Assembly: GCF_963576615.1 (NCBI RefSeq)
Contig: NC_088712.1
Coordinates: 29,727,870 to 29,791,869 of the forward strand
Direction: 5' to 3'
DNA from: Watersipora subatra
Taxonomy: Eukaryota; Bryozoa; Gymnolaemata; Cheilostomatida; Watersiporidae
DNA length: 64,000 nt
Shown here: positions 24,301 to 60,800 of the stretch, one piece after another
Position numbering within the stretch: the first letter of the stretch is position 1
Layout of the letters: each line of letters begins with the position of its first letter
Program-made: the position numbers and the translations under genes
Notes under the pieces: model-generated
The model's database searches: none
Told to the model about the DNA's origin: nothing
The model's input: only the letters and a program-made list of their open reading frames with translations

Positions 24301-25903
24301 TTCAAATGTTAGGGGGTTCTTTACCCAATAGTTTCTAATTGGATTCCAGTTTGATTTTCTCCAGGAATCACCAATTTATTGTGCCCTTATTTTTCAGGGA
24401 AGATAACTTCTGAACTGGTGCAGGATATAGACGAGTGCTCAAATTCTAATGACCTCCTTATGGATGGTTGTCATGAGTTGGCTACTTGTTACAATAGTCC
24501 TGGACTTTATGCTTGCAGTTGCAACCCTGACTATGCAGGTTGGTAGTTTGCACTTGTAACCCTGGCTATACAGGTTGGTAGTTTGCAGTTGCAACCCTGG
24601 CTATGCAGGATGGTAGTTTGCAGTTGCAACCCTGGCTATGCATGTTGGTAGTTTGCAGTTGCAACAGTGGCAGATGAAAGGAATCGGAGCTTTCATGAGC
24701 TGTATGGGCGCCAGAAAGGTTTAGAGTTTGCTCATTCATATAGTGTAGCTGTTTATGATCTGTAGCGGTATAAATAGTTTAGCTTGCATTTTCTCTTTTT
24801 TACAATAATCAAACCTTTTCAGGAGATGGTTTCACCAACTGCCAGAACAACACTGTCACTCCTGTTCCAATAACTCAGCTGTCTGATTGGTCAATTGCTC
24901 TGATAGTCATTGGTGGTGTCCTGCTGCTTGTCGCCATTGTTGTCGGCCTGATCTGCTGCACTCGCTATGGCAGAAATAGAAACCCAGAGCATCAGCAGCT
25001 TACAGAAGGTTAGCCCTATGGATAAAGCTTTTTTAGTAGATTAAGCTCAGCTGTGTGCTATAGCTAGAGGAGGTATGTACCATGAGCTCAGAGGTGTGAT
25101 ATGGCTAGAGAAGGTATTTACCATGGGCTCAGAGGTGTGCTATAGCTAGAGAAGATATTTACCATGGGCTCAGAGGTGTGCTATAGCTAGAGAAGGTATT
25201 TACCATGGGCTCAGAGGTGTGATATAGCTAGAGAAGGTATTTACCATGGGCTCAGAGGTGTGCTATAGCTAGAGAAGATATGTACCATGGGCTCAGAGGT
25301 GTACTATAGCTAGAGAAAATACAAACCATGGGCTCAGAGGTGTGCTATAGCTAGAGAAGCTATGTACTGTGAGCTTATAAGTATGCTATAGCTAGAAGAG
25401 GTATATACCATGGGCTCACTGGCTTTGTTATAAGCATTAAATAAAGTCTCATCTTCTCAGGAATCTCATCAACCCCATCACTCAATGTAATTATCATTTT
25501 TGTTTCAGTTTACCGCTGTATTTTTTTCAGGTGAAACCACACCTCCTCGTCTCGAATATGGACCCACTAATCCTACATTTTATAACAGCTGGCGTTCCGC
25601 ACATGACCCCAAGTCAGAGTATGCTGAGAGCTACTTTTTTGCTCAGCAGGTAAAATGTATTTTTATGCACGGGCAGCTAGTAAATTAGGTAGTAAAATCG
25701 TTAATTCTGTTTACTGCCGTGTTTATATAGACTGTACAACAACACCTATTACCTCAATGCATATGAATACTACTAGGAACTTCTCTAATAATAGCCATCT
25801 TTGTTTTTTATGGTTGTAGGAAAGGGAGCTACCTGGATATACTCACAAGACATACAATGTAGCTTCAAATGACACAACAACATTCCAGTTTGATGAATCC
25901 TAA
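155..25903 (+). CDS. Gene 1: PLAC-like/SEA-like/EGF type I membrane protein (3' part, 23 exons)
   Basis: This gene is joined from 23 exons: 155-341, 1600-1709, 4191-4375, 6886-7129, 7489-7680, 10410-10500, 10694-10823, 10946-11087, 11664-11872, 12814-12972, 13519-13689, 15277-15403, 16919-17035, 18847-18966, 20000-20127, 20528-20651, 22124-22216, 23009-23191, 23756-23980, 24398-24538, 24823-25008, 25531-25649, 25820-25903. All junctions are GT-AG and in phase, giving 1154 residues and TAA at 25901. Residues 1 to ~687 hold fourteen six-cysteine modules of the form C-x(n)-C-x(n)-C-x(n)-CC-xx-C. About 690-811 and 866-980 are SEA-like domains, ~817-864 and ~984-1035 are cbEGF domains, and ~1049-1071 is a transmembrane helix. 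The tail has an NPTFY motif. The modules resemble the PLAC domain of ADAMTS and papilin proteins; that is inference from spacing. The role is probably an adhesive or mucin-like cell-surface receptor. The start codon and signal peptide lie left of the window. Confidence 0.85.
1085..1575. repeat. Degenerate ~38-bp tandem array
   Basis: Unit based on 'acagtgaggcaattagttta'. Intronic in gene 1, ending just before the acceptor of exon 1600-1709. Confidence 0.7.
1600..1709 (+). CDS. Gene 1 exon: rest of module 2 and Thr-rich linker
   Basis: The acceptor is attatag|AG and the donor A|GTAAG. Read in phase from the previous exon it completes the second six-cysteine module, ending RCCDRC, then starts a Thr/Pro linker (STTPLPTT). 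This exon is too short for a standard ORF scan; phase continuity supports it. Confidence 0.8.
1815..2621. mobile_element. MITE with CCGTAAGTCC ends, TA target duplication
   Basis: The ends are inverted copies (CCGTAAGTCCTCATGCTCAA at left; matching reverse complement at right with one change), flanked by TA at 1813-1814 and 2622-2623. It holds an 18-bp array (1905-2045) based on accaacaagccgccctt and a small ORF at 2237-2452 with a DFHCAVRGLHV start. Confidence 0.75.
2624..4190. other. Intron sequence, AT-rich, nothing coding seen
   Basis: Region before exon 4191-4375. Around 3400-3960 there are several 'accgaa/cggtt' motifs that may mark an old transposon, but no clean ends were found. Confidence 0.4.
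4191..4375 (+). CDS. Gene 1 exon: Thr-rich linker, module 3, start of module 4
   Basis: The acceptor is ttcctgtag and the donor CAG|GTATG. It enters in phase 1 and leaves in phase 0. It encodes a Thr-rich mucin-like linker, a B-type module ending KCCATC, and the start of the next A-type module (CAWGNQ). Confidence 0.85.
4512..5248 (+). mobile_element. pogo/Tigger-like MITE, TA target duplication
   Basis: The left end CAGTCAAACATGGATAACTC pairs with the right end (reverse complement CAGTTAAACACGGATAACTT), flanked by TA on both sides. The interior repeats the phrase 'aactcgaac'. Related copies lie at 17215-17802 and 31640-32240. No transposase is visible. Confidence 0.8.
5485..5985. repeat. 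Dispersed repeat, copy 1
   Basis: Shares about 400 bp with 13005-13440 in the same orientation, beginning 'gctcactgctgatggatt' and including 'acatcgcaaatcttggaa'. The class is not recognised. Confidence 0.65.
6171..6274. repeat. 26-bp array, 4 copies
   Basis: Unit gacacaagtggcatatggtg plus taagtc. Intronic. Confidence 0.85.
6886..7129 (+). CDS. Gene 1 exon: modules 4 and 5
   Basis: The acceptor is ttattcag and the donor G|GTCAGT. It completes module 4 (TCCELC) and encodes all of module 5 (SPCCQTC), then ends with the YLPSG linker that precedes A-type modules. Confidence 0.88.
7205..7445. repeat. 11-bp 'tgtcaatcatt / cagtcatctat' array
   Basis: Lies in the intron between exons 6886-7129 and 7489-7680 and forms most of it. 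Confidence 0.8.
7489..7680 (+). CDS. Gene 1 exon: module 6, Thr/Ser linker, start of module 7
   Basis: The acceptor is attttcag and the donor A|GTAAGT. It encodes CQYGDKVDFC and the rest of an A-type module, which carries extra cysteines after CCASC (CCDDC), then a Ser/Thr linker likely to be O-glycosylated, then the first cysteine of module 7. Confidence 0.88.
8341..9130. mobile_element. Nested insertion holding an ATGGAAAT array
   Basis: Comparing the two arms of the host element shows this 790-bp block is absent from the other arm. It is flanked by TAC on both sides and its ends are weakly inverted (CAGGATCA / TCCCTGA). Most of it is a degenerate array of atggaaatgttatggaaa units. Confidence 0.65.
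9276..9900 (+). mobile_element. Insertion related to the CCCGGCGTTGC-ended family
   Basis: It starts ctgtactacccgagttgccc and continues with the same 'gtctttggacagaaaattt' and 'ccattctaactttcaaact' text as 38885. It sits at the loop of the foldback element. It contains a 32-bp hairpin at 9753-9784. Confidence 0.55.
9983..10026. mobile_element. 44-bp palindromic insertion with AGTAA duplication
   Basis: It starts CCAATGATATACAGCCC and ends with the exact inverse. AGTAA flanks both sides, and the opposite arm of the host element has the uninterrupted ctatgagtaactg. Fragments of the same sequence occur at 8395-8465 and 35650-35670. Confidence 0.7.
10410..10500 (+). CDS. Gene 1 exon: module 7
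   Basis: The acceptor is gttttgcag and the donor AG|GTAGG. It enters in phase 1 and leaves in phase 2. It completes a B-type module ending SCCLTCYN. It lies just downstream of the foldback transposon at 8086-10345. Confidence 0.82.
10694..10823 (+). CDS. Gene 1 exon: module 8
   Basis: The acceptor is gattgttgcag and the donor CTG|GTTAG. It encodes the A-type module beginning LPGSCRYGDK and ending LCCGTCYDLL, and leaves in phase 0. Confidence 0.87.
10946..11087 (+). CDS. Gene 1 exon: module 9
   Basis: The acceptor is ttgtttcag and the donor G|GTAAG. It encodes a B-type module with cysteines at the family spacing, ending KCCSACK, followed by the YTLP linker. A tandem array begins just downstream. 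Confidence 0.88.
11190..11605. repeat. Degenerate ~27-bp array
   Basis: Unit based on 'gttgttaacatggatgtagg'. Fills the intron before exon 11664-11872. Confidence 0.75.
11664..11872 (+). CDS. Gene 1 exon: module 10 and Thr-rich linker
   Basis: The acceptor is cattttag and the donor CCT|GTAAGT. It encodes the A-type module CIFGDKVSWC...QCCETC, then about 30 residues rich in Thr, Ser and Pro, which look like a mucin-type O-glycosylated spacer. Confidence 0.88.
12005..12775. repeat. 21-bp array next to a 3' splice site
   Basis: Unit 'gacagacaaggtattgtgtt' plus one base, about 30 copies. The period is a multiple of three, so it stays open in several frames, none in frame with exon 12814-12972. 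Confidence 0.88.
12814..12972 (+). CDS. Gene 1 exon: module 11 and start of module 12
   Basis: The acceptor is tttgtaatag and the donor AAG|GTATGC; both ends are phase 0. It encodes CPVGDIATNC...VCCRTC and the start of the next A-type module (CRYGDK). A 21-bp minisatellite abuts the intron side of its acceptor. Confidence 0.86.
13005..13440. repeat. Dispersed repeat, copy 2
   Basis: Diverged direct copy of 5485-5985, in the intron after exon 12814-12972. Confidence 0.65.
13519..13689 (+). CDS. Gene 1 exon: module 12, Thr linker, start of module 13
   Basis: The acceptor is tatatttag and the donor ATA|GTAAGC; both ends are phase 0. It completes an A-type module (TCCARC), then a Thr/Pro linker, then the first two cysteines of module 13. 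Confidence 0.86.
14125..14652. repeat. 26-bp array, about 20 copies
   Basis: Unit 'gaggtgatctgattggtgag' plus attgtt, very homogeneous. Intronic. It gives a long spurious ORF on the minus strand. Confidence 0.9.
14653..15276. other. Intron, no gene or clear repeat
   Basis: AT-rich sequence before exon 15277-15403. Nothing further recognised. Confidence 0.4.
15277..15403 (+). CDS. Gene 1 exon: module 13 and start of module 14
   Basis: The acceptor is ttgtacag and the donor G|GTAAC. It completes a B-type module (GCCVQC) and begins the last A-type module (CKYGDKAEFC). Confidence 0.86.
15404..16918. other. Intron, no gene seen
   Basis: Contains a short inverted pair ('aaggtctgacc/ggtcagacctt' at 15610-15640) and a doubled ~50-bp segment at 16795-16895 (gagtcgagagtatttagata) just before the exon. 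Confidence 0.4.
16919..17035 (+). CDS. Gene 1 exon: module 14 and Thr-rich linker
   Basis: The acceptor is tttcttgcag and the donor G|GTAAG, phase 1 at both ends. It ends the final six-cysteine module (TCCEKC), then a Thr-rich spacer leading to the first SEA-like domain. Confidence 0.84.
17215..17802 (-). mobile_element. Truncated copy of the pogo/Tigger-like MITE
   Basis: This is an inverted copy of the 4512-5248 family: it shares the 'cgagttatc' phrases and the 'gccatagagacaaacatcaac' core with 31640-32240. The right end reads GTTTGACTC then TA; the other terminus is not recognisable. Confidence 0.7.
18163..18666. repeat. 31-bp array, about 16 copies
   Basis: Unit 'agtccagctagtccaatcag' plus agacagcccat. 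Intronic, upstream of exon 18847-18966. Confidence 0.9.
18847..18966 (+). CDS. Gene 1 exon: first SEA-like domain, N-terminal part
   Basis: The acceptor is cttgctacag and the donor G|GTATG. It encodes the segment with F-I-R-P-VPPG, which matches FVRSVPPG at the same place in the second copy (23009-23191). Both segments end with a cysteine near the donor. Confidence 0.75.
19098..19425. repeat. 31-bp array, about 10 copies
   Basis: Unit 'ctgtatattagtatctagtg' plus agttatcctct. Intronic. The following 19500-19870 is degenerate 'tctgaaaat' text. Confidence 0.9.
20000..20127 (+). CDS. Gene 1 exon: first SEA-like domain, middle part
   Basis: The acceptor chosen is tgatggcag at 19991-19999 because it restores phase 1 and aligns with the second copy. 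The acceptor at 19970 would be out of phase unless the previous donor moved. It ends DCST|GTAACC. It matches the first half of exon 23756-23980. Confidence 0.65.
20528..20651 (+). CDS. Gene 1 exon: first SEA-like domain, C-terminal part
   Basis: The acceptor is acctggtag (20527). The exon encodes ALFYTLYILVDRSMNYEN..., which aligns with VLFKVTAHIIIDGSINYVDN in the second copy. A near-identical upstream acceptor at 20484 would shift the frame to a stop. The donor at 20651 is itself copied in the following array. Confidence 0.78.
20641..20875. repeat. ~32-bp array made of an exon end plus its 5' splice site
   Basis: Unit 'agatgaagagggtatgtaga' plus gtttatagaccat, about 6 copies. The first copy contains the real exon end and donor at 20651. 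Confidence 0.85.
20945..21375 (-). mobile_element. tRNA-headed SINE joined to a CCCGGGCAACGCCGGG-ended repeat
   Basis: On the minus strand 21070-20995 is tRNA-like (A-box TAGTCTGGTGGGTAGGG; B-box GGTCTGAGATCGAATC), followed by the shared tail CCAAGATTTTAAGATCTATA. The other end carries acccgggcaacgccgggtag. Confidence 0.6.
21480..21890 (-). mobile_element. tRNA-headed SINE-like repeat, copy A
   Basis: The minus strand has TTAATTAGTAAGATACTTG and GGTTCCGAGTTCAAC as A- and B-box-like motifs (about 21620-21560). The whole ~390 bp matches 28738-29118, including 'tgtcgctatttgggtgaaaa'. Confidence 0.65.
22124..22216 (+). CDS. Gene 1 exon: first half of EGF-like domain 1
   Basis: The acceptor is ttaattgcag and the donor G|GTTGG. 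It encodes the calcium-binding EGF start DVDEC with two more cysteines, ending NSE before the G-L-Y-T-C of the next exon. The intron splits the EGF domain between C3 and C4. Confidence 0.85.
22510..22940. repeat. Dispersed repeat related to 34085-34465, ending in a 25-bp array
   Basis: Inverted relative to 34085-34465. Both encode a similar short frame (FQTVTLHHD-R-RVTW here, FQTVTLNHG-R-RVTG there). The last ~95 bp is four copies of a 25-bp unit (gggtggtgtgtcgctatggt and on). Confidence 0.55.
23009..23191 (+). CDS. Gene 1 exon: second half of EGF 1 and start of SEA-like domain 2
   Basis: The acceptor is ttttacag and the donor G|GTCAG. It encodes GLYTCSCP...GDGFTC, completing six EGF cysteines, then the second SEA-like domain beginning with the VPPG motif. 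Confidence 0.88.
23405..23560. repeat. Short 'catgtcactac' repeats
   Basis: Degenerate 9- to 12-bp units in the intron between exons 23009-23191 and 23756-23980. Confidence 0.6.
23756..23980 (+). CDS. Gene 1 exon: SEA-like domain 2, main part
   Basis: The acceptor is aatttgcag and the donor G|GTAAG. One exon covers what takes two exons (20000-20127, 20528-20651) in the first copy. The IIDGSINYVDNI stretch resembles the GSv.v strand of SEA domains; the assignment is tentative. Confidence 0.87.
24398..24538 (+). CDS. Gene 1 exon: first part of EGF-like domain 2
   Basis: The acceptor is atttttcag and the donor GCAG|GTTGG. It encodes DIDEC and the following EGF cysteines up to CSCNPDYAG. The last ~27 bp of the exon, with its donor, recur in the array downstream. 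Confidence 0.88.
24511..24662. repeat. 35-bp array made of an exon end plus its 5' splice site
   Basis: Unit 'tttgcagttgcaaccctggc' plus tatgcaggttggtag. The first copy is the end of exon 24398-24538. Confidence 0.88.
24823..25008 (+). CDS. Gene 1 exon: end of EGF 2 and transmembrane helix
   Basis: The acceptor is ccttttcag and the donor G|GTTAG. It encodes GDGFTNC (last EGF cysteine), a short stalk, about 23 hydrophobic residues (IALIVIGGVLLLVAIVVG and following), then the basic stop-transfer RYGRNR. Confidence 0.9.
25058..25425. repeat. 41-bp array, about 9 copies
   Basis: Unit 'gctatagctagagaaggtat' plus ttaccatgggctcagaggtgt. Intronic, between exons 24823-25008 and 25531-25649. Confidence 0.9.
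25531..25649 (+). CDS. Gene 1 exon: cytoplasmic tail
   Basis: The acceptor is tttttttcag and the donor CAG|GTAAA. It encodes a tail with NPTFY (NPxF/Y-like) and SEYAESYFF, possible tyrosine sorting or phosphorylation sites. Confidence 0.85.
25820..25903 (+). CDS. Gene 1 last coding exon
   Basis: The acceptor is tggttgtag. It reads in phase 0 to TAA at 25901-25903 and ends in FQFDES. No clear PDZ-binding C-terminus is present. Confidence 0.85.
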   Translation, partial: ERELPGYTHKTYNVASNDTTTFQFDES

Positions 25904-27689: not shown

Positions 27690-28014
27690 TGCTTAGCCCC
27701 GTTTTGTTTGTAACAAACATCTCGAACTCTCTAAATTTCTCAAAAACATCTGACTTTTGGCTTACAAAGTACACGAATGCATATCTGTTAAAGTCATCAA
27801 TGAACGAGACAAAAAATTTACTACCTCCTAGAGACTCTGTTTGCATTGGACCGCAAACATCAGTGTGCACCAATTCAAGTGGCCTAGTAGTTTTCACAAT
27901 ACCATGACTTAGAAAAGGCTTTCTTGTCATCTTGCCCTTTATACAGGGCTCACATAAGTCAAAATTCACATTAAATAAGTCAGCACCTATTACTAACCTA
28001 TTTTGGTGGTGCAT
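27690..28014 (-). pseudogene. copia integrase fragment
   Basis: It begins inside the GAG-pre-integrase region (MHHQNRLVIG), has the paired Cys of the zinc site (CEPC) and the first catalytic Asp (HTDVCGP). It stops at FVTNKTG, so the second Asp and the Glu are absent. Confidence 0.85.
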
Positions 28015-28737
28015 TCTTGTAATCCAACTACTTGGAAGCTAGGTTTGGTGGACAACTTGAGGGCATGGTCTTTGTTCAAGGCCCACCAGTGTTGATTAGG
28101 TGTCCGAACTAAGGACTGTGTCAACATGGTTGCTTCGAAGGAATTCTAGGTAGGAATGAACTCAGAATTCTTGTTAGAATTATGAGTTTGTGCGAAACGA
28201 GCAGAAATTTAACTGTCAAGATACCATAACCAACTGAGATACAATAGACAGAGCAAGCATTACATATTGGGTTGTGAAGATATGCAGCACAAGCACAGCT
28301 TAAAGCACATAAAGCAATAAAGCACAGCTTAGATAAACCAATGGATAAGCATGATGAGTTTATATAAACAAGTAACTGTGGGAACTAGACAATGATATAT
28401 CCATCAGGATGAGAGAGAACACTTCAGCTGGGAACCAATAAGGTGTGTAAATGAGTACATTATTCTCATGACCTTCATCCTAGATACTCTTATCGAGAAC
28501 AATGGTTGCATCAACTGTGATAATCAAAATTTTAAAACTGACTATGTTAGGGCTAGCAGCAGAGATCTGCCACATTTCCTTCCCTTCCTTTGCTATGATC
28601 TTGATAACATATATTGTACTGTGCATGTACATAGTTGACATACCCAGCCTTTTAGTCACACCAGAGTAGCGCAATAAGAGAACAAGAAGTTAACTGGCGG
28701 TGTTTTAATATGCGAGTACAGGGCTGGTGCCAATCTC

Positions 28738-30858: not shown

Positions 30859-33800
30859 CTAAATGTAGTAATCATAGGTAGTGTATCACATTATAGATTA
30901 GATGATATACATACTAGCAATCATAGTTAGAGTATCATACTATAGATTAGATGATATACATACTAGTAATCCTAAGTAGAATATCATACTATAGATTAGA
31001 TGATATACATACCAGTAATCATAGGTAGAGTATCACGTTATAGATTAGATGATATACATATCAGTAATCATAGATAGATATCATGTTATAGATTAGATGA
31101 TATACATACAAGTAATTCTAGGTAGAGTATCATGTTATAGATTAGATGATATATATACTAGTAATCCTAAGTAGAGTATCATACTATAGATTAGATGATA
31201 TACATACCAGTAATCATAGGTAGAGTATCACGTTATAGATTAGATGATATACATATCAGTAATCATAGATAGTTATCATGTTATAGATTAGATGATATAC
31301 ATACAAGTAATCCTAAGTAGAGTATCATACTATAGATTAGATGATATACCCTAGGACACTTATATTTCGCTAGTATTTAGTTTTGTGAGTAGCTCACAGA
31401 GTAAAATTTCGAAGCAACTTAAGTTCGCAGTTCTGATGAGTGCGAAAATATAGTGATGTGAAAATAAATGCAGTGGAACAAACATAATTATATTCCTCAG
31501 GTTCGGTTCATCGATAAAAAAAATTTCAATTTGCGACTAGTTTGTAATTGTGAACCGCAGGTAGAATGGTGTGGGCAAGGTCGATAATGCAATTTGATCG
31601 CTTGCTGCCATTTGTTTCTTGGACTATCAACAGGCCAGTTTTCACTGGGGCAGCTGGCCGGCTGAGCCGCCCCAACTTTTTGGGAATTTTTTACGGTAAG
31701 TAATGTCCAACTCGAAAAACTCGCCCTCAGATAAAATGTAACATTTCATCTCAAACACAAGGTCAACTCAAACGGATTTGTTTGGTCAGTTCCAACGCAA
31801 TGATAAATTCCTTCAGATAACTCGACCTCAACATCCTTTATTCGAAAAGTTATTTGCCCAACGGCCATGGACGCGGTTTTTATCGCTGTAGAATGTCACT
31901 TCATTCCAAGCCATAGAGACAAACATCAACTTCTAGTAGTTCTTAGGCATCATTATTATCATCATCAGAGGCAAAATATTTTTGTTAACGACTTTTATAA
32001 AGGTTTGCAAAAGATTAAGTTTTATCAATCACCCGCTTGGCCATGTCCCATCGAAAGCGTAAAAGCCTCCGAATGAACTTGAAATAAAATCTGCAAAATT
32101 GATCTTTGTTAAAACGCTCAAAAGGAAAAGATGTTTTTTTTCTGAGCGTATTAACTGCGGTCATGTTTTGCTTATGTTAATTTAAAAACGCCTCGTCAGT
32201 CACATCACTTAAAACAAAACAAATCTCAAAAAATTACAAGTTATTGAAGAGGTGTCAGTGGTGAATCCAAACCTTCCCAGAGCCATGCTGCTTGTGTAAT
32301 ACTACGAGTGTCAGTGCATGTGTCTTATTTTCTTTCAACACACGGTGCTCACTGCATTGATTGATGTCTCCAGCAAACGATAACGCTAACTAATGCATGT
32401 GCATTGACATCAAATTCCTATCATTATAAATCATTCCTAATGGGAAAATAATCCTAAATAATTGCAAAATAATAACGTAATAAATTTTGACAGCCAAATT
32501 ATTTTGTCGGTTTATATTTTAACGATGCTATAGTGGTAGTTAAAAACGTTAAAATAAATGTTGTTATAAAATTCAATTATACAGTATCAATGAACAAAGC
32601 TATTTAGTTTCGCTTTTTCGCTCATTTGTTATGATAGTTTAGTGCACATGAAACTTTCGCGAGAGGATGACACTGCGAAAACGCGAAAGTTAGATGCCGC
32701 GAATACATAAGTGTCCTAGGGTACATAGCAGTAATCCTAGGTAGAGTATCACGTTATAGATTAGATGATATACATACAAGTAATTCTAGGTAGAGTATCA
32801 TGTTATAGATTAGATGATATATATACTAGTAATCCTAAGTAGAGTATCATACTATAGATTAGATGATATACATATCAGTAATCATAGATAGATATCATGT
32901 TATAGATCAGATGATATACATACCAGTAATCATAGATAGAGTATCACGTTATAGATTAGATGATATACATATCAGTAATCATAGGTGGAGTATCATGTTA
33001 TAGATTAAATGATATACATACCAGTAATCATAGATAGATATCATGTTATAAATTAGATGATATACAAACCAGTGATCATAGGTAGAGTATCATACTACTT
33101 GATTAGATGATATACATACTAGTGATCATAGGTAGAGTATCATACTATAGATTAGATGATATACATAGCAGCAATCATATGTAGAGTATCACGTTATAGA
33201 TTAGATGATATACATATCAGTAATCATAGATAGATATCATGTTATAGATTAGATAGTATACAGACCAGTGATCATAGGTAGAGTATCATACTATAGATTA
33301 GATGATATACATACTAGTAATCATAGGTAGAATATTATGATATGGATTAGATAATATACATACTGGTAATCATAGGTAGAGTATCATACTATTAGATTAG
33401 ATGATATACATACTAGTGATCATAGGTAGAGTATCATACTATAGATTAGATGATATACATAGCAGCAATCATATGTAGAGTAGCACGTTATAGATTAGAT
33501 GATATACATATCAGTAATCATAGATAAATATCATGTTATAGATTAGATAATATACAGACCAGTGATCATAGATAGAGTATCATACTATAGATTAGATGAT
33601 ATACATACCAGTTATCATAGGTAGAATATCATGATATGGATTAGATAATATACATAGTGGTAATCATACGTAACGCATTATTCTATGGCTAAAGCCCGTG
33701 CTAACATTAACAGACAAAAGCACATAGTTTGAAGAGAAAAGCACTTAACTGGGTTAGTAGCCCTACCTATCACTATCACAGTGTCCCCAGCTCGAAAAGA

Positions 33801-36800
33801 CAACTCTTCTTCAGAGTTCTTGTTAGGTGAACGCGTGGAGGGGTTGTAGTCAAACTGCGCTACCATTCGCTGCTCCATGTTTTTGATTTCCTCTACTAAG
33901 TTGCTAGGCACATAACCCTTGCGTCCATTCAACTACAACATCAAAAATACTCCTGAACAAACTTTCGCTGTACGATACCCCGATAGTGCTCTACAATTAA
34001 CTGTAAAGATTCAAAACAGACAGACAAAAAGTAGTCTGATAAACCAGTAGACATACGATATGTACGTAAATCTAAACAAAGCAGTAGAACTTTACTAAGT
34101 TTCTCCACAGAGACAGCGTAGTGACACACCCCCAAATATTGCTGCAATGACATCATGGCAACAGCCTGTCACTCTCATTCTGCCGTGATTCAGCGTCACT
34201 GTTTGGAAGCAAAACAAGCGTGTGATGCAACATCTTTGTGCCATAAAAACTACCTTAGCGACCAACAAGGTTGCACTTGTGAGTACATGTAGGTCTTGCT
34301 TACAACCTTGACATGAAATACCTAAATACAACCTTGACATAACGCGTTGTACAACCATCGCTTTACTATAGTGTCCTGTGGAACCATGATCTGCTTGTCA
34401 GCCCAGTGTATAGCTTCGGCACCGGGGCACTCAAAAGTCACTACACTTTCGCTGCACAGAAACTTAGTAACTGTAACATGGCTGCATCGACTAGAGAGGC
34501 TCGTAAAGCGCTTGGCTGTTTATAGTAAAGTTGACCTTGTTATGAGCTGACAAAAACAGAAGTGTCATAAAGTGGACAAGGACACAGTTAAACGACCAGA
34601 AAGAATTTTAACTATTCCACGTTGAAGTGCTGGTCTCTCAACCAAATCATCAGATCATAGAAATTTTTGTCATTTTTCTTTAGCAACATTGTTTGCAGTT
34701 TTATAAACTCCCAATTTGTTGCTGAGATATTTGCACAAGTGCTTACAAGCCTAGCCAATATTTGAGCTGCAACAGTACAGAACGTGACAAGGACAAGGTT
34801 ACCTCTCCCAAGTAGAAGCCATCTTCATCAAGCTCTCCGCAAACAGTGATGATATCTCCAGCCTGAAAACCTAGTTCCTCATTTACAGCATCCTTGTTAG
34901 GAGACATGCTCGCTGGCTCGTAGTCATAGACTGCTTTGAAGGATCTTAGACTAGCCCCTGAACGATTAGTTGAACTAGCACTCTGATTTTGACTGACTGG
35001 TGATGTAAGGGCACCTGCACAGAGAGTAACAAATGAAGACATACGAGCAGAGGTCGGTTAACACACCATAAAACCTCCATTTGAGTGTCACCTTTATTTA
35101 AACATCACCTCTTATAGAATGCCACTATAAGAGAAGAGTTGAAAAATGTAGCACCACCTTTTAACAAAATGACACCTAAAGTATGCCGCCACTTTGACAT
35201 TTGTTATGTTTTGTTATGGATCTTCATGAACCCGTAATAGAAAGTTATCAGTAGAAAATTCTCCACAAAATAGTACTAATAATTACTAGATTACATAAAT
35301 AATAATGAGTTCTTCCATTGCTGTTGTCATGGTTGCCCTGGTTTTAGTGTTAGTGTACCTAAAAAAATTGATTATTACAACTAGAAATTCCCGTTATACA
35401 ACCCACTGCCAAAGTGATAATGGAAAAAGAAAGGGTACTGCTGGTTAAAAAATGCAGCATTAGCAGTAAAATGGCACTGCAATGCAATAGGAGAACTGCA
35501 ATGGTAGCTGTAATTTACTGGGTGTTATTATGTACAGCAAACAACAATAATGAAAGGAAAAGATTATATGTTTATATCTCTCCCCTGCAATAGGATAAAT
35601 GCAATATTAGAAGTAAAATGGCAAGCTGCTGTGTAATATACACAGGCTGGGGGGCTGTATATCATTGGTCATAGCAACCAATATCAAGAAGTTGTGATAT
35701 TTATCTAGATTTCTGTATTTATATCCAAAAAATTATGCTTAATTTAAAAATCTAAACAGATTTTAGCTGGTTGTCATAGAAATAGATGCATATCTATAAA
35801 AAAGGTAGGTCTATTACTTAATTTTGCAGACATTAAAAACGGCTTGGCAGAACCGAGATATTTGGCACAGCCGCAGTATCATCATCAACAAAATCTTTAG
35901 AAAAATAATAACAGTAACATATTGCACACCATCGGTCACTATATACTTCGATCTTGTAAATTCGAATGATTATTCTTATAACTATATATTATAATAATCT
36001 TATAAAATCGAATAATTATTCTTACAATTAAATACTGTAGCAATCTTATAAGAATCGTTAGAAAAATATCATCGTTATTTCCTTTACTTTCACTGCATTG
36101 GACATCAGTTGGAATACCAAAGTAATCATTATAAGTGTCCAAAATGTCAAAGTCCGGTAGAATCGGCAAAAAAGAAACGATTACTTTTCAGTACTTTTAC
36201 GTTAATTACAGAAACCTTCGGCAATTGGACAATGCCATAAACTGGTGAAATGTACACGTTTTTCTTGTGAAATGCGCACAACTTAATGGTTCTACTCTCT
36301 GTCGCACGACATTATCGGCGTTTCGTTGGCCAGTCTTAATTTTGATTCAAAAACGCTTGTCAAGTTGTAATGGCGATTTTAGGCCAAATTAATCTGCCTA
36401 TGTATGTATAATCCGATAAGATGGGTAAACTTTAGGATATTAAATCAACTTTTCAAAGACTTAGTGACATATTTAAATAGGTTTTTATGTGTTTTGTATC
36501 ATTATTATAATTAAACGACTCTACACAAAAATGGTTAAATTTTTCGATGTGATTTCGGTACAAGAGTTTGGTCACGGCCATTGACGGATAATTTTTCGGG
36601 AGTTGTGTGCGCATATGCATTTATCATAAAGCTCCCAAACAATCGCTTCGCTCATGTTTGGTCGTGGAATCCTCAGAATTATATTCCGATTCAAAGTCGC
36701 TGAGGCCCATATTTGATCCATTGTCTTCAAACTCGTTCACAAGGCGATTTACAACCTAATCAGAAGCTTTTATCTCATACTTAGACGTACAGTGCACTTC

Positions 36801-42800: not shown

Positions 42801-45800
42801 TAGTAACAGCCCTTTACTTCTCACCAGGCAGAGAGAAATTCTGATTAATCAATCTATTTGTCAACAATACATATTGGTTAAGAAGGTTGGTGTGTGTAAA
42901 CACAGAATATATCGACACTATTTGTCGCTGTCCATCCATATATGTAAACAATGAAGGTTAAAGCACATCAATTACATAAATACTGATTTAGCTTATTCGG
43001 GTTCTTCAATATCTTGGCTTTCATATGAGCCATTGTTTGACATGGTGAGACAGACATTGGTTGGTGTTTATAGGATTTCCCCAGAGCTCTACCGCAGAAA
43101 TCTTCGATGGTATAGGATCAAAAATTGTGATGTCACAATTTTCATATTCGGTGTTGTGTGCTCTTACCGTTTATTTTATTGCTTACTGTTTATACAGACG
43201 GTCCCTACTTACGAACTTTCGAGTTACGAAGAACGGTACATACGAACAGGTCAGCCCGTATATCCGCTGCTAATACCGACGTATTGGCGGCAGAAAGAGC
43301 CACTACTCAGAAGCACCACCCAGCATCCACCTTCCTCTGCCCAGTTCGTTGCAGTGCATAAGTGTGTGAACATATCTCCAGTGTGCAAAAAAACATTTTT
43401 ATTTTTACTCTACGTATTGTAAAGGAATTTGCCGGCCTTTACTTGGCATGATCTAGACTAATAAATAAAGAGAAGAGAGTGCGTGTAGTTTCATTCAGCT
43501 TTTTATTAGCGAAGGAAATTTCACTAGCCGAGGAGCATACGGTATGATATCAACATATGATATCAACCATTCCGGCTAACGGCAAACGGTAAGAACACCG
43601 GCTAACAAGGTGAATAAATAGGACCGCTAGCGCGTTAGTATGACAACAATATAAGTGACGATAAGTGATAGTGTTATGATGAGATATCAGATATAACAAT
43701 AGCATAACGAGTGAAACAACGGTATAATAAAAAGGACAAGACATACAATAAATAAGAAATGCAGTGTCATGGCCCGGCGTCCACCACAGTATTCTCTTCA
43801 TCTTATTAAATATTTTTTCAGTACAAACCAATACAGTTTACTTATACAAGCCTTAAACATACTTATATAAACCTTCAATATACTTATATAGGCCTTGAAC
43901 ATAAATTATAATACAAAATATAGCCCTGAAGCAACTTGCGAACAAATTCACCGTACGAACAATCGTTCGGAACGTAACTCGTTCGTAGGTTGGGGACCGT
44001 CTGTATCTATCAACTATGCTAATGACGCTAGTGGCAGGCGAAGGTTGGACAACTCCAGAGAACCAATGAAGATGACAAAGGAATCAGCGTTATTAGCTCT
44101 CCATGTACAGATTATTTTTATGATAAATAACTCAGATTCCAAGCACCATACTATGTTTTTCCGATGATATTATGCACTAGCTATCTCTTTTTATCGTGAT
44201 GTTGAGGGGCACGACTGAGACTAATTAATTTCAAGCATTGCGCGATTTTGCGAAAGTGCGATTGACAAATAGTCCTAAAGCCACGCAACTGCAGGTCACA
44301 ATTTAATCGATGTGATTTCATCACCTTTATCAACGACAGTATATTTATTGAAGCATAATTAATTAACCCAGAACATGTGTTTGTATTGGTTGGCGTTAGC
44401 GTGATCCCCGGGCATTGTTGATTATCTAAAATCCTAGTTTATTATTAGCGCTCTCTGGGTTTAACAGCACTGATTGGCACAGAAAAGCGCAGCCTCAATG
44501 GCAGCAAAAGGGATCGACGACCTAAGGCTAAAATATAATTATGACATCACATTGTGGGAAGCACAACCAAGTGTTTTTTTTATTGCAGATCATACTTTTG
44601 ACACCCTGTTTTTCATAGTTCTATTATTCTTTGTGTATTGAATATAGGCTCATTCGAAAGCCAAGACTCTGATGTAATTATGTAAAAAAATTATGTAATT
44701 TATGTGCTTTGAGTACCCATAAAGGGTAAGTAATATACACGAAGGGTAAGTACCCATCAAGGGTAAGTAATATACACGAAGGGTAAGTACCCATAAAGGG
44801 TAAGTAATATACATGCTAGACAATGACGTTGATCAAAAGCAGCGAATTGTGATGCGTACCAATAGTTGGTGTAGACTCAGAAGTTGACTGGCCTTGATTA
44901 GTGAGAGTGTCCTGCTTGCCCTCCCCATCCAACTCTTCAAATTCTAAGATTATTGGTGAACATTTGTCATCAATGAGACTAGCAGAGCCCAACTTTACTG
45001 GGTACTTAGGAGTTGAGTGCAGCATCTAAACAGTAAAAACATATGAAGGAATTCGTGGTGCAGATGTGGAAGTAATCTGCCTGAAAGGAATTTCAACTGA
45101 TGAGCTATGTACTACTGTAGTGATGAGTTATGTACTACTGTAGTGATGAGCTATGTACTACTGTAGTGATGAGCTATGTACTACTGTAGTGATGAGCTAT
45201 GTACTAGTGTAGTGATGAGTTATGTATTACTGTAGTGATGAGTCATGTACTACTGTAGTGATGAGTTATGTACTACTGTAGTGATGAGTTATGTACTACT
45301 GGAGTGATGAGTTATGTAATACTGTAGTGATGAGTTATGTTCTACTGTAGTGATGAGTCATATACTACTGTAGCGATGAGTTATGTACTACTGTAGTTAT
45401 GAGTTATGTACTACTGTAGTGATGAGTCATGTACTGCTGTAGTGATGAGTCATGTACTACTGTAGTGATGAGTTATGTACTACTGTAGTGATGAGTTATG
45501 TACTATTGTAGTGATGAGTCATATACTACTGTAGTGATGAGTTATGTACTACTGTAGTTATGAGTTATGTACTACTGTAGTGATGAGTTATGTACTACTG
45601 TAGTGATGAGTCATGTACTACTGTAGTGATGAATTATGTACTACTGGAGTGATGAGTTATGTACTACTGTAGTGATGAGTTATGTACTAATGTAGTGATG
45701 AGTTATGTACTACTGTAGTGATGAGTCATGTACTACTGTAGTGATGAGCTATGTACTATTGTAGTGATGAGTTATGTACTACTGTAGTGATGAGTCATGT

Positions 45801-48800
45801 ACTACTGTAGTGATGAGTTATGTACTGCTGCAGTGATGAGTTATGTACTGCTGCAGTGATGAGTTATGCACTGCTGTAGTGATGAGTTATGTACTACTGT
45901 AGTGATGAGTTATGTACTACTGTAGTGATGAGTTATGTACTACTGTAGTGATGAGTTATGTACTACTGGAGTGATGAGTTATGTACTATTGTAGTGATGA
46001 GTTATGTACTACTGTAGTGATGAGTCATATACTACTGTAGCGATGAGTTATGTACTACTGTAGTTATGAGTTATGTACTACTGTAGTGATGAGTTATGTA
46101 CTGCTGCAGTGATGAGTTATGTACTGCTGCAGTGATGAGTTATGTACTACTGTAGTGATGAGTTATGTACTGCTGCAGTGATGAGTTATGCACTGCTGTA
46201 GTGATGAGTTATGTACTACTCTAGTGATGAGTTATGTACTACTGTAGTGATGAGTTATGTACTACTGTAGTGATGAGTTATGTACTACTGGAGTGATGAG
46301 TTATGTACTATTGTAGTGATGAGTTATGTACTACTGTAGTGATGAGTCATATACTACTGTAGCGATGAGTTATGTACTACTGTAGTTATGAGTTATGTAC
46401 TACTGTAGTGATGAGTTATGTACTGCTGCAGTGATGAGTTATGTACTGCTGCAGTGATGAGTTATGTACTACTGTAGTGATGAGTTATGTACTGCTGCAG
46501 TGATGAGTTATGTACTGCTGCAGTGATGAGTTATGTACTGCTGTAGTGATGAGTTATGTACTGCTGTAGTGATGAGTTATGTACTACTGTAGTGATGAGT
46601 TATGTACTACTGTAGTGATGAGTTATGTACTACTGTAGTGATGAGTTATGTACTACTGTAGTGATGAGTCATGTACTACTGCAGTGATGAGTCATGTACT
46701 ACTGCAGTGATGAGTTATGTACTACTGTAGTGATGAGTTATGTACTACTGTAGTGATGAGTCATGTACTACTGCAGTGATGAGTTATGTACTACTGCAGT
46801 GATGAGTTATGTACTGCTGCAGTGATGAGTTATGTACTGCTGCAGTGATGAGTTATGCACTACTGTAGTGATGAATTCAGCATTTAGAGCTCCAAATATA
46901 TAAATATTTTTTGTTGGCTTTTTTTCCTCTTTTCCTGATGTTTTGAGTCATCTGGCTTATATAAGGGTGCGGCTATTCTGTATTCTATTCTTTTTTCTTT
47001 CACCGCTAGGGCGCATCAACCGGAATCTCCGATTAGTGCACTTTTAGCGGTGAAAGAAAAAATGAAACAATGCCTAACGGTACTGTTCCGTTAGGCACTG
47101 GGTTAAAAAGCGTCGATTAATACGGAACAGTGCCTAACGGTACTGTTTCGTATTAACATGCAAAGTTGCTGCCGTGTTAAAAAGCACTGTCATGAGTTTT
47201 GCGGCCTATACAAAAGGTGTAGCCTATATATTGTTTTATTTATCGGTTTTTTGAAAATAAAGCAGATGCGGCTTATTTAGGGGTGCGGTTAATAGTCCGA
47301 AAAGTATAGTACATGGAAGTGCGCATATAAAATAATTTACTGTTTCAGCAAAAGCTCGTTGTATTCAAAGTTTTGATAGACAACACTGGTACCTCTCGAC
47401 ACTGGTACAAACGTAAATACGAGATATCGGACCATCTTTGTCTGACCGAATGAAGAGAATGTAGAGGCAATTCCTACTCCAGATAATAAATTTGTCCATG
47501 TGAAAAATATTGAGCTTTTAAAGATTTACCAAAACCAACAATAGGAATGAAATGATACATTTGAAAATTACAAAATAAAAAAAGGTTTTAGTGAAAAAAA
47601 ATCTTTTAAAAGAATTGGTAAAAAATAACAATAGTAAAAGGTAATATTTATTAATAATAAAAAAGGCCATATTTAGCATGTGCAATCGTGACAAGGATAT
47701 ACCTATATGTAAAAGCATTAGAAATGGTAATAAAAATTTAGCCTAGTGGTTGAGCACGCTTGGTTGCAGGCTTGTCATATAAATGTGGTGAGTTCAAATC
47801 CTCTGCAAAGCGGATTTATTATTGCTAGACTTTAATCGCTGTAACTGGACACAAGGATGAAAACAAACAACACTGAAATTTCCATATAGATTAGTATGAA
47901 TATTATGTATTGGTTGGACTCTCGACTCTTATCTGGCAGACCTAAAGGTAGAAGACGCCAAAAGAACATGAAACACAATATGTTTATTAGATTTTCTATT
48001 CCTAAACCTTCGCCCAATTACATTTCTTCTCACAGGCAGGCCTGCATAGCACAGACCAATTGTATTGCTCATGACTGACAGGCTTACCTCTAACAAAAAC
48101 GATGTCATGTAGGAACAGTGAAGAGATGACCTAGTGGTTACCTGGGCAGAGTTGGAAGGTTTGCTGGTGGCAAGAGTGGAATCATAATTCTTCAAAAAAG
48201 CGGGCTCTTCTAGCTCAGGTTCTATCTGGTTAATATCAAAGTGAGAATGGGTGGAGGAGTGAGTGACTCCTTCCAAAAACTCATCAAACTTCTGAAATAA
48301 ATATAACTAGAACGCTTGAAGCAAGCGTAGCAATGGGTTTGAAACAGGGCTCCAATCTTTTAAATCTTTCTACTAATGGTCCTCTACAATAACATATACC
48401 CTACAGGATGAAATTATTCGCGGAGTTAAATTTCGCGAAAATTGCCTTTTCATGCATATTCGCGGACTAATATATTCGCGGATGAACACATACGCAAATA
48501 AATTAATCCGTGAATGCAGCTAGCAATAGTGTAAAACCTTCACACGCATGTTCCACGTTTTTAGGGCTCTATTAGCTGGGAAATTTATATCGATCATGCT
48601 AAGCTATAAATTTCTAGCTGCATCCAGAGGTTTTGATGAATATTCATCGATTTGGAGTCCTTTGGTGAACCAACAACTTGTGGTGGGTTATGAATTTTTC
48701 AAAACCATTCTCTAAATTAATCATATTGAATTTTACTTTGGTTCTTTGGTAAAACGCAGTATTTATTTCTTCCATCACTACTGCTCCTCATCTTCACACA

Positions 48801-54800: not shown

Positions 54801-57800
54801 AGCTGCGGATCTATTGTCTTCTAACGTTTGTTCTCTTTCTTTTAAGGCATGGGACAGTTTAGTTAATTCGGATAACTGCTGCTGGTTTTCTTGTTCAAGT
54901 AATGAAACTTTCAAGTTCAAGTCTTTGGCTACTTGTTCTTCAACTTGACACTCAGTCAACTTCACTTCGAGCTGCTTATTGGCTGACTCCGCCTCTAACA
55001 GCCTGCTTGAAGTCAAGTTGAACTTTTGATTGAGCTGCTCAAATGACTCAAGCTCTTTCGTCTGAGTGCTAATCTCTTGTGAAAGCTCTGCCTGAAGACT
55101 GGAGATTTCACTTTCTGCCAATTTTAGTTTAGCAGCTAATTCTGTGCGTTTACTGTGAGAGTCGTCTACACTATGCAATAGTTTTTTATTCTCTGTACTC
55201 AAATCCTCAATTTCCTTCTGTTTTGTGATTAGGACTGCTTTAAAATCATTTTTCAACACTTCAATCCGTCGTTGTGCTTCCGCCCGATTTTCTTCAAGTT
55301 CTCGACGTTCTTCACTACACTGCTCAAGTTGTGAAGAGAGACGATCAACTTTCATCTCGTGCTCGGCTGTGGTCCTTTGTAAAATTTGGTTTTGCTTCTC
55401 CAATTGTTCTTTGGCTGCGTTCAACTCTTCCTCTAAGGAGAGGGTCCTTAATTTAACCTGCCATCACGCACAAGAACATTAGAATCCTAACAGCAACAAT
55501 CATCGAACAATTCCTAAGTTGTGTTTAACTTTATCACTGCCAAATTATTTTTTTTTCCAGGAAATAATTAAATCGTGGGTATAACCTAATATTTGACAAG
55601 TGTGCGTATAAACTTATATGAACCACTCTAACCACCAATTAATTAGAATAAAACTTCCCACCATCTGTTGCCATAAAAAGGCTGCAAATGTGTTGCAGGA
55701 AGAGTTCACACATTTGTTTTTGGCCATTTTCGTTATGACCAAGAGCGTGTTGTGAATCAGATAAGTTATCAATATTATTATAACTGACTGCATTATTATT
55801 ACTGCTAAAAATAAAATAATACTAGTACTACTGTTCAATAGATAATCAACTCAAGTCTATTGATCTACAATAGTGAAATCTCCGTAGCTATAATGAGTGT
55901 GGTTGCAATAAAAAAATTTACTTTTTGCAAAACGAAACTAAGCTCAGGGTGGGCTATAAACATAATTTCTATTGGCTCAATGCATACAAATGACCATCTC
56001 CTTTTGTTAAGTACATATATGATAGGCTAATTAATTAACTACTCACTAATCAGAAATGTATGAAGTCTACTAAAGCCCCACCACGAGGCTCTTGGTCATA
56101 TGCAAACGTTGTGCCGAGTCCCACTACGTGGCTCGCAAAAGCTAATTCCCAATGACTAGTGTAGAGCAATAAGGCAGTGAAGCATACAAGCCTAGCAATG
56201 AAAAAGAATAGAACATGACCCGCAAAGAATAATGTTCTCAATAATGGAAGAAAAAGACAAAAAGCGCTGACAGGTTATTGCACATGACAGGAAATGACAG
56301 GTACTTAGATACCACTGTCTAATGAAGATCAGTCATGAGCGAATAAGGTTATTGTACATGACAGGAAGTGACAGGTACTTGGATACCACTGAGGATTATA
56401 AGCACCTCTATTGACGGGTGCTCAAGATCAACTGATACTCAAGTATGTTTACACAGACTTGAATTTTAAAATAATTTTTAAATATTCTGATTATTATTGT
56501 GGCTTGAAATAATTCTGACCTGACTTAATGAAATAACAGTAACTTTATATGCAATCTCAATGAGCCAAATAAATTAAAATTTTTGCATTAAAAAGTTAAC
56601 AAGTAAATGCAAACAAGTGCAAGCTAGCTGACTTTTGAGGGTTGCATGAGGCTCATAGAATATAGCTAGCTTGAAGTATATTCGTGTGTTTTACACTGAC
56701 ATATGTTCTACTGACAAGTGTCACACTGGCATGTGTTACATTGACATGTGTTCTACTGACATGTGTTCTACTGACAAGTGTCATACTGGCATGTGTTACA
56801 CTGATGTGTTACATTGACATGTGTTACGCTGGTATATGTTACACTGATATGTCACACAGGCATGTGTCACACTGGCATGTATCCTACTGACATGGGTCAC
56901 ACTGGCATGTATTAACTGGCATGTGTTAACTGGCAAGTGTTAACTGGCGTGTGTTAACTGGCAAGTGTTACACTGGCAAGCGTTACACTAGTGAGTTGCA
57001 CTCCTGTGTTACTCTAGCATGCTTTACGCTAACATGTGTTACACTAGCTTGTGTTTACCCAAGTCTCCTTCATTCACCTTGTGTTTTCAACAGGCTACAT
57101 ACATTATCATTATCATCCTGCTGCTGAAGCAAATCTTCATTTTCCTCTTGCAAGTCATCATTCTTAAGCTCCAATTGTTTTATTTTGGTCTTCAGCTCAT
57201 CTGAAACAAATTGACAGTAACATGCTGAGACTTGGCAACTCACTTGTTGACACTTGTCAACTAACTTGTTGACATGTGGCAACTCACTTGTTGACACTTG
57301 CCAACTAACTTGTTGACATATGGCAACTCACTTGTTGATACTTGTCAACTAACTTGTTGACATGTGGCAACAAACTTGTTGAGAATGTCTATTTCTTTCA
57401 ACTCGACAGTTCAATTATTTCAATGATTATATCATAATCAAACAGCCATAAAGAATTTTATAAAACAAACAATGCTAAAATGGTAACCAAAAGAACAGAC
57501 TCCACCTGTTTGTGATTGCATCACTGGCAGCACTGAGTGATTAAGCTCATGTAACTGACTTTTCAGGCTTTGGTTTTTGTCCAATAACTCATGAATTCTG
57601 TCATTAGATAGAGAGGCTTCGGTCTTGAGCTGGGTTACCATGAGTGATTGATCTTTCAGCTGCAATGAGCAAGACAGCGCAAAATCAAAACTCAGGTAAT
57701 GAAAAATTAGATGGAGTAACTCACTTTACTAACTAGAGATTATCTTAGAACTAATGTTTATGTAGACAACCAAAAATATAATAATTATACATTAATGGGC

Positions 57801-60800
57801 TCATCAGAGATATACAATTGAACCTCCGTGGTAAATAGCAGAGCTACTAAGAAAGTTATAGGAATAGCTACTAGGAGAGCTACTAGGAGAGCTAGTAACA
57901 TTTTATGAAGTAACTAATAGTGATTATTAAAAGTAAATTAAGTTAGTTGATTCCACTGGGTATATTATTATAGCTATCCTGAAATTTGGTTTTTGGGTGA
58001 CCAATTGTGGACCACTAAATTTCAAAGAGGCGGCGAAGTGAACAATTGTTACCATCACTTGGTAGTAATAATGCCTGCTAGCTTGTCTCTGTTAGTCTGG
58101 TCAGTGGCTAAATGATGATGTCTGGAAGTAAAGATTTACTACTTGACCATAAATAGTTGATTTATAATTTATCTGTTTACATAAAGCCATCTTTGTGAGC
58201 TGAGCTCTCGTTAGTTTATCTCTACTAGCCAGTTTTTATAGTTGATCTCTACCCGAAGACTTTTGTTATATGGTTGCTGGTCCTTGCTAATTTGTAGAAT
58301 TTTAACAAAGCAAGCATTTAATTGGTCGTTCTCCTTGTTGTTGACAGTTCATACTGAAACAACTAAAACTAAACTTGAGTGTAGAAAAAAAAATCAGAAA
58401 AAAAGATGTTAGGAAGGTCTATGTTAATATTGAGTACCTGAGTGTTAGAGGAAGGTCTTTGATATTGACTACCTGAGTGTTAGAGGAAAGTCTTTGATAT
58501 TGACTACCTGAGTGTTAGAGGAAAGTTTTATGATATTGAGTACCTGAGTGTTAGAGGAAAGTTTTATGATATTGAGTACCTGAGTGTTAGAGGAATTTCT
58601 TTGATATTGACTACCTGAGTGTTAGAGGAAAGTCTTTGATATTGAGTACCTGAATGTTAGAGGAATGTCTTTGATATTGAGTACCTGAGTGTTAGAGGAA
58701 AGTCTTTTGATATTGAGTACCTGAGCGTTAGAGGAAAGTCTTTGATATTGAGTACCTGAGTGTTAGAGGAAAGTCTTTGATATTGAGTACCTGAGTGTTA
58801 GAGGAAAGTCTTTGATATTGAGTACCTGAGTGTTAGAGGAAGGTCTTTTGATATTGAGTACCTGAGCGTTAGAGGAAAGTCTTTGATATTGAGTACCTGA
58901 GTGTTAAAGGAAAGTCTTTGATATTGAGTACCTGAGTGTTAGAGGAATGTCTTTGGTATTGAGTACCTGAGTGTTAGAGGAAAGTCTTTGATATTGAGTA
59001 CCTGAGTGTTAGATGAATGTCTTTTGATATTGAGTACCTGAGTGTTAGAGGAATGTCTTTTGATATTGAGTACCTGAGTGTTAGAGGAAAGTCTTTTGCT
59101 ATTGAGTACCTGAGTGTTAGAGGAATTTAGACGCTTAGTAAGACTGTCAATATTTGACTCCATCTGCTGGATGGCGACTCTGTCATTCTTTTCTAGTGAT
59201 GAGTTTAGCTGTTTGTTTGCCTCTTTGAGTCGCTCCATTAACTGTTGAGATTCTTTCTTTTCCTGTCGGAGGATGACTATTTCTTCTGTGAGCTTGTCTA
59301 CAGTATCTAAATGGAGACAAAACAAACATTCATCGACTTAAAATGGCATATTCAAATTTATTGAAAGGCGTTTATAAACCTTGGCTACTTTCAATATGCC
59401 TTGCAACAATATTTACAACTACTTGCAAAATAACTATCATCTGCTGGCTGTTTAAAATCTGTTTTAATATTTTCTATGTAAGACAGGGTTATCTAAACAT
59501 TAAACATAGCTTACTTTACACACTAATTATATCCAGACTCATAAAGGAGTTGTTTACCCACAACTGCTCTGTAAATACGCAATCTTTACAGCTGTTACAC
59601 TTACTTTAACAAAATGATAGGCTAATCCTAAACATTATGGTACTCAATCTTATAAAAACAAACTATAGTTTTAAATAGCAACAACCCAATATTGCATTAT
59701 TAAATAAAATATTTATATCATCTAGTTTGCACTAACAAAAAGAAGAGCACTTACAACTTTGCAGGCAAGTTGTGCTTGTTGAAGGAGGTGTGGTAATAGC
59801 AAAATTAAGATATTTTACAAAAAATAAGGGCAGACAAACTTACTTTAATTTCGTTTACGAGAAATTAAACTTAATGTGTTGCGCCTTTGTGTGTGACACA
59901 CAAGAACACAGAGAATGGCACAAGTAGCGCAGCAATCAACACCTATTCAACTAGTCCCAGCAACACTTTCCATTATTTTTCCAACATTTGAAGAACTTTC
60001 CTCGTGATATTCTAACATTTGTCCAAAAATCTTTGTATTACAATTGTGAGAGCTTATTACAATTGTTTTTACAGCTAAACTGATTTGGATTTGCATTAAA
60101 AATAAATCCATAGTGTGTTCCTGCTCACCATATCAAACGATATTATCTCGGTATTGTAGAAATTCAAAAGACAAACAACCTTTTGTTTTGAACAAATTTA
60201 TTTACAAAGAAAAAGACCAGCAAATGCAAAATCTCTGAATTTCAGCTGTACAACATAAAAATATGGAAATAGCTCAATTCATTTCTATACAAAGTATTGC
60301 ATACTCAACAACTAAAATGTGTAGTTATCAGCACATGTGCCAATATCCAACCACACCAAGGGCAGACAAATCTATAGTTGGTTTTAGAGCAAATTCAAGC
60401 ATGAGGAAGTGATTACTGTATGAAGCTGTTGAAATTCTTCTGTTAAGTCTTGTCTAAGCTCAGCAAACCTCGACAGAATGCTCGAGGAAAAGCCTAAAAC
60501 TATTACCTTGTTGAAGACATTCAGCTCAGACCTGATAGTCAGAGTCATGAATAACCAGGCATAAACATGGACCACAACAAGCACATGACTCTACACTGGA
60601 CAAGTCTGCATGAGTGACATGCTACTAAACTAGCGGACCAATCACATTTAGCCTTTAAGTTTCAGTCGACTAATGCTATTGGTGGACTGAAACATAAAAA
60701 GCCAAATGTGATTGGTCCACTTTTAATGATTGTAAAGCAACCTAAATACATAACAGAGTGTAAATGCCTGTGTAGTTAGTAAATGTGGTACCATTATACA

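Follow-up and report, generated by a model that had tools for sequence, protein, structure and literature searches.

Which of twenty nearly identical 5' splice sites ends an exon, and does their multiplication serve the gene that carries them? The question is raised by a gene for a scaffold protein of the synaptic type, RIM-binding protein (RIM-BP), on the minus strand of the 64,000-nt stretch of DNA analyzed here (the window, C5:29727870-29791869 of a 783.7-Mb assembly in 239 contigs), in which a minisatellite begins inside a coiled-coil exon, X3, and continues into the following intron. We consider it likely that this is an ordinary minisatellite whose founding unit straddled the boundary between X3 and its intron by chance, and that the exon-proximal donor at 59110 is probably dominant, with the distal donors mostly idle.

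The host gene was reconstructed from ten minus-strand exons between 63565 and 48142 that are consistent in phase and join into a single frame without a stop codon. The joined SH3 exons (35014..33767) gave five top matches that are all RIM-binding protein chains, the best of them being 2csi (3.7e-22), and the SH3 part of the large exon matches RIM binding protein 2 (1wie, 2.5e-7). An fn3 domain was also found (1.7e-9), together with a sub-threshold Ig_RIMBP2 match (0.0024). The presence of both RIM-BP type SH3 and FN3 domains places the gene among the RIM-binding protein genes; thus, the identity given in a preliminary description of this DNA is borne out by the ten-exon open frame and by best matches to solved RIM-BP SH3 domains, and the assignment is a good one because of the SH3 matches (2csi and 1wie), the fn3 domain and the weaker Ig_RIMBP2 match. 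Taken together, the RIM-BP, EGF and FN3 domains of this DNA would indicate an animal source. Exon X3 taken alone (59306..59110) has no Pfam match above the curated cut-off. The introns flanking it are 2.7 and 1.45 kb long. Another minisatellite, with 77 copies of a 23-bp unit and 93% matches, was observed at 45098-46874 inside the span of the same gene.

Table. Positions of the exons, splice sites and minisatellite arrays described in the text (window coordinates).
Feature	Position	Strand	Basis
RIM-BP coiled-coil exon X3, phase-1 acceptor, phase-0 donor	59110..59306	minus	phases fit flanking exons
Exon-proximal donor CAG/GTACTC	59109..59110	minus	phase 0, as the next acceptor; heptad register; 2.2 bits by local matrix
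Minisatellite of 35/36-bp units with 20 CAG/GTA junctions	58411/58427..59125	minus	TRF and unit listing
Three 36-bp units; donors 59074/59038/59002 would give in-frame +12/+24/+36 residues	59002..59109	minus	
Sixteen further junctions (58967 to 58438), each leading to a premature stop	58438..59001	minus	16/16 in built mRNAs
Next exon, X4, 154 nt, phase-0 acceptor (57659)	57506..57659	minus	
Two exons joining into a RIM-BP type SH3 domain	33767..35014	minus	gene identity
EGF-type exon of another gene, final 26 nt inside the second donor-spanning array	24398..24538	plus	
Second donor-spanning minisatellite, 35 bp x 4.4, starting 26 nt within the exon	24513..24665	plus	
Third donor-spanning array, 64 bp x 4.1, Cys-rich modular gene	L033:9448-9707 (window -60552 to -60293)		
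Arrays without a junction, edges 2, 2, 3, 6 and 10 nt away	-60817..-60748 (L033), -53938..-53636 (L032), -29351..-28018 (L016), -3922..-3859 (L014), 1102-1589		

For the array at the end of X3, TRF reports a period of 35 bp, 19.8 copies and 94% matches. Each unit consists of the final 16 nt of X3 followed by about 19 nt of intron, so that the unit listing confirms the earlier view of the repeat as an exon end joined to its 5' splice site. The array edge is sharp and lies 16 nt within the exon; in the 20 nt upstream of this edge (59125), no likeness to the unit was detected (P = 0.65). On the minus strand, the CAG|GTA junctions follow each other at 59110, 59074, 59038, 59002, 58967, 58932, 58897, 58862, 58826, 58791, 58756, 58721, 58685, 58650, 58615, 58580, 58544, 58508, 58473 and 58438, separated by 19 spacings of either 36 nt (7/19) or 35 nt (12/19).

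The CAG|GTA core is unmutated at all 20 junctions. Its extended form is CAG|GTACTC at 17 of them and CAG|GTAGTC at the 15th, 18th and 19th (58615, 58508 and 58473). The exact 20-mer CTAACACTCAGGTACTCAAT is present at 13 junctions, and the remaining seven differ from it by one substitution, three of these being the GTAGTC copies. Thus, the exact sequence, which the preliminary description placed in each of about 19 units, is not carried by all of them. The 13 exact copies are the sole matches to CTAACACTCAGGTACTCAAT reported for the assembly, and all of them belong to this single locus. Selection on the array donors was considered on the strength of the six invariant CAGGTA columns over 19 units and was rejected, the result of column shuffling being not significant (P = 0.09). 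Just distal of the array, at 58369-58425 on the minus strand, an acceptor-like intronic stretch was noted by eye, with CCTAAC resembling a branch point, an extended T tract and an AG.

The consequences of donor choice were followed by building each of the 20 possible mRNAs in turn. The reading frame is kept by four donors, 59110, 59074, 59038 and 59002, and the other 16 of the 20 lead to stop codons. As had been predicted in the preliminary description, the 36-bp units adjoining the exon keep the frame, with donors 2 to 4 adding 12, 24 and 36 residues; all of donors 5 to 20 run into stops. The first three spacers translate to VLNSKRLSSNTQ, VLNIKRHSSNTQ and VLNIKRHSSNTQ; the 12-residue peptide foreseen for every skipped donor is therefore encoded by units 2 and 3 but not by unit 1. 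With a home-made heptad scoring, for which agreement in register would arise by luck in about 1 of 7 cases, the windows listed for the product of donor 59110 (residues 124 to 190) agree on one heptad register on both sides of the junction, which falls at residue 159. Inclusion of one, two or three units, 12 residues each, shifts the register and lowers the score at the junction; near the junction the score is 2.5-3.0 with one unit included versus 3.9-4.9 without it. As only the product with none of these units is in register, 59110 is indicated as the true exon end, and a harmless variation of coiled-coil length is disfavored. Judged by phase, frame and heptad register, all of them read from the sequence, donor 59110 is most likely the one mainly used.

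Splice-site strength was assessed, as the preliminary description had proposed, by scoring all donors with a splice-site matrix, here derived from 21 local donors called in the window and compared with a background of 7,789 GT sites. The presumed real donor, 59110, is weak (2.2 bits, the 79th percentile of the 7,789 GT sites and the second lowest of 23 called donors), and the three distal GTAGTC copies score 5.78. Since these copies outscore 59110, they could draw splicing off the first donor. When the 19 unit ends after 59110 were scored as acceptors, 18 fell between the 61st and 77th percentiles of all AG sites and the remaining one reached the 92nd, compared with 18 of 22 called acceptors above the 87th percentile. 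In a comparison with 20 shuffled versions, the RNA of the array showed less structure than every one of them (z = +2.5). An RNA fold that hides the distal donors was accordingly rejected as a candidate, there being no sign of it in this comparison.

Two other donor-spanning arrays were found nearby (Table). In the array of the EGF-type exon, the exon join of which is backed by an EGF_3 match (1.4e-8), donors 24538 and 24573 read CAG|GTTGGT, the corresponding position at 24608 is without GT and that at 24643 is without G at -1. Three intronic units of this array still encode the motif C-x-C-N-P-G-Y; thus, copying went from exon to intron. In the third array, the exon ends at -60526 and four identical strong donors GTTCGG|GTAAGG are observed. 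The first step is 35 nt in the EGF array and 63 nt in the array at -60526, and reading into the first unit hits a stop codon at once in both, which suggests that unit inclusion is no general device here. The gene that carries the third array is a giant Cys-rich modular gene on the plus strand, extending approximately from -75 kb to +16 kb, with 49 exon frames of a recurring domain (CC..C, C-x-Y-G-D); for the two of these exons that were scanned, there was no Pfam match above the cut-off. At 27057-28038 on the minus strand, frames resembling fragments of a Copia-type integrase and reverse transcriptase were noted by eye.

The relation between minisatellites and splice junctions was examined more broadly by adding 80 kb on each side of the window, which gave a contiguous 224 kb. 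This stretch contains 101 arrays with 19.4% coverage and is richer in minisatellites than ten distant 10-kb samples, in which the cover ranges from 0 to 10.6%. Of 45 junctions called in the window, two (donors 59110 and 24538) lie inside arrays, versus 8 to 9 expected if arrays ignored genes. In a first test, on 12 arrays in 13 introns of the window, two arrays were flush with a junction versus 0.07 expected (P = 0.002). The larger test comprised 40 arrays in 46 introns (35 of the Cys-rich gene, 1 of the EGF gene and 10 of RIM-BP). Excluded from it were 13 of 48 steps between Cys-rich frames that had an unclear end or apparently missing exons, one of these steps having an array that would sit 0-7 nt from its acceptor, as well as the RIM-BP introns between 48142 and 35014. 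Junctions were chosen by matrix score and phase, the phases being assigned by eye, except in the first seven introns, which were treated without phase.

In the larger test, 8 of 40 arrays lie at most 10 nt from a junction versus 2.1 expected under random intronic placement (P = 0.0008), a count in which some close cases were known before the proximity test was run and three (-60820, -3926 and 1600) depend on a phase-fitting site chosen over a higher-scoring one; without the array at 58411..59125, the count is 7 of 39. Junction-spanning arrays amount to 3 of 40 versus 1.49 expected for founding units placed anywhere (P = 0.19), and they are thus at about the chance level for a minisatellite-rich region. 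The closeness of the non-spanning arrays to junctions is a moderate excess, and chance may not fully account for the starting points of arrays. A donor-like site of at least 5 bits was found in 36 of the 101 array units, versus 19.4 after shuffling, 17 after reversal and 19.9 in matched non-array DNA, where none of 300 samplings reached 36. AGGT occurs in 27 array units versus 17.3 expected (P = 0.01), and it is the 12th of 136 four-mers by excess, after TATA, GTAT and others. With AGGT in 12th place the excess is unspecific, so that a general seeding of minisatellites by donors was rejected and the excess is not counted as evidence of splice-site seeding, although it would be compatible with it. 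We consider quite unlikely the more general model in which splice junctions are preferred starting points of minisatellites in this genome, introns are extended outward from their exons, and ladders of near-identical donors are common among the genes, which tolerate them via self-correcting, multi-step AG|GT splicing.

A function of the RIM-BP array can be imagined in several ways. According to the preliminary description, the array could tune the length of the coiled coil; tissues or alleles would then pick among the first four donors and extend the coiled coil by 0, 12, 24 or 36 residues. Such regulation would profit from the first three spacers being open and 36 bp long, an order that has a chance of P = 0.036 given seven 36-bp steps among 19 (weak). 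The same one to three units, however, shift the heptad register and reduce the score near the junction, near-identical donors would give no obvious handle for choosing among them, and the sister arrays, with first steps of 35 nt and 63 nt, run into stop codons immediately. The tuning proposal is not supported by these comparisons, and we regard it as highly improbable. Another possibility is that the array lowers expression by routing a fixed share of the transcripts to decay. This would agree with the 16 of 20 donors that lead to stops, three of which outscore the first donor, but an array placed over a donor by chance would act much alike. Moreover, in the human ABCA7 intron 18 VNTR the second donor, use of which keeps one unit, accounts for 2 +/- 1% of transcripts independently of repeat length (PMC5954066). 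A dedicated device of this kind is very unlikely.

The unit ends might also have a dual specificity, CTAACACTCAG/GTACTC serving as an acceptor as well, so that a second round of splicing would remove included units and restore the same junction. AG|GT is present at all 20 junctions, any unit end joined to X4 would recreate an AG usable by donor 59110, and a tandem array of this type is used in RNA in human UBC (PMC10809524). Set against this are the poor scores of the unit ends as acceptors, 18 of 19 falling below most called acceptors; the objection is tempered by the statement in the UBC paper that dual sites function with weaker motifs (PMC10809524). On balance, we find dual specificity unlikely.

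The ordinary minisatellite that we prefer would have originated when a founding unit happened to span the end of exon X3 and the start of its intron. As the sequence shows, tandem duplication has multiplied the donor together with the 16 exon bases before it, giving 19 more copies within the intron; the direction of copying is presumed. Since the first copy stays with the exon, production of the correct mRNA is not prevented. Splicing at 59110, the nearest donor, would probably yield most transcripts, since X3 is flanked by long introns, and in human data long introns favor, among donors of near-equal strength, the one closest to the exon (PMC9225289). The same data also show dominance of the stronger site in 86% of events, and before the filter for equal strength the downstream donor leads in all four intron classes (PMC9225289). 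The remaining 19 donors would be mostly idle. By analogy with ABCA7, a small share of transcripts would probably use the second donor, with VLNSKRLSSNTQ added in frame, and rarer transcripts would reach stop codons and decay; rare in-frame (+12-residue) or null isoforms are thus possible at a low level. Longer alleles may also promote skipping of X4, as judged from the same human gene, and since X4 is 154 nt long, its skipping would shift the frame. Because alternative transcripts of ABCA7 often outnumber the canonical one, a predominance of correct mRNA is not assured here. The array is probably a tolerated by-product that makes donor choice slightly leaky.

With 20 near-identical serial donors and two sister arrays, the locus offers a natural experiment on spliceosomal choice among equal 5' splice sites. 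The same arrays bear on the ways in which minisatellites can extend an intron, beginning at the end of an exon, while the gene stays intact. In the accessible portions of the open-access literature, no description of a donor-spanning array in an invertebrate was found, and no title on the RIM-BP gene was retrieved by queries made without that gene name.

Several known systems share some of these features. In C. elegans, an intronic minisatellite is linked with genes having several splicing choices (PMC4039745). Internal tandem repeats with units of 30 bp on average distinguish human paralogs, and some of them lie at exon-intron boundaries and can alter splicing (PMC2812944); they are known as differences between paralogs with transcripts, and the available part of that report makes no mention of donors repeated with the units. 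For the potato RdRp gene, the gain of an intron through tandem duplication has been described under the AGGT model (PMC4974935). Both that case and the present array involve tandem duplication over a splice junction, but in potato an intron is gained, whereas here an existing intron grows. In the UBC polyubiquitin gene, tandem AG|GT sites serve as donor, acceptor or neither (PMC10809524), and AG|GT is likewise found at every unit boundary of the array at 58411..59125 (20/20). The UBC units, however, are coding 228-nt monomers, whereas those of the present array are short, belong mostly to the intron and have ends that score poorly as acceptors.

The closest parallel is human ABCA7, in which the same arrangement has already been published with RNA data; the present array is another case, in RIM-BP. 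The ABCA7 VNTR has a 25-bp repeat that flanks exon 18, includes its donor and has a unit starting with GT, and it ranges from about 12 to 427 units (PMC5954066). Skipping of exon 19 increases with VNTR length and is high in brain, and the alternative transcripts together, mostly due to this skipping, exceed the canonical transcript in 90% of frontal cortex samples (PMC5954066). The arrangement in ABCA7 has been tied to Alzheimer's disease risk (PMC5954066). Like the ABCA7 repeat, the RIM-BP array would include the donor of its exon, and a putative donor, CAG|GTA, is present in 20 of 20 units. It belongs to another gene and another animal, and it differs in that its 35/36-bp unit also contains 16 nt of exon. 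The frame differs as well: the first three steps of the present array are in frame, whereas inclusion of a single ABCA7 unit would shift the frame.
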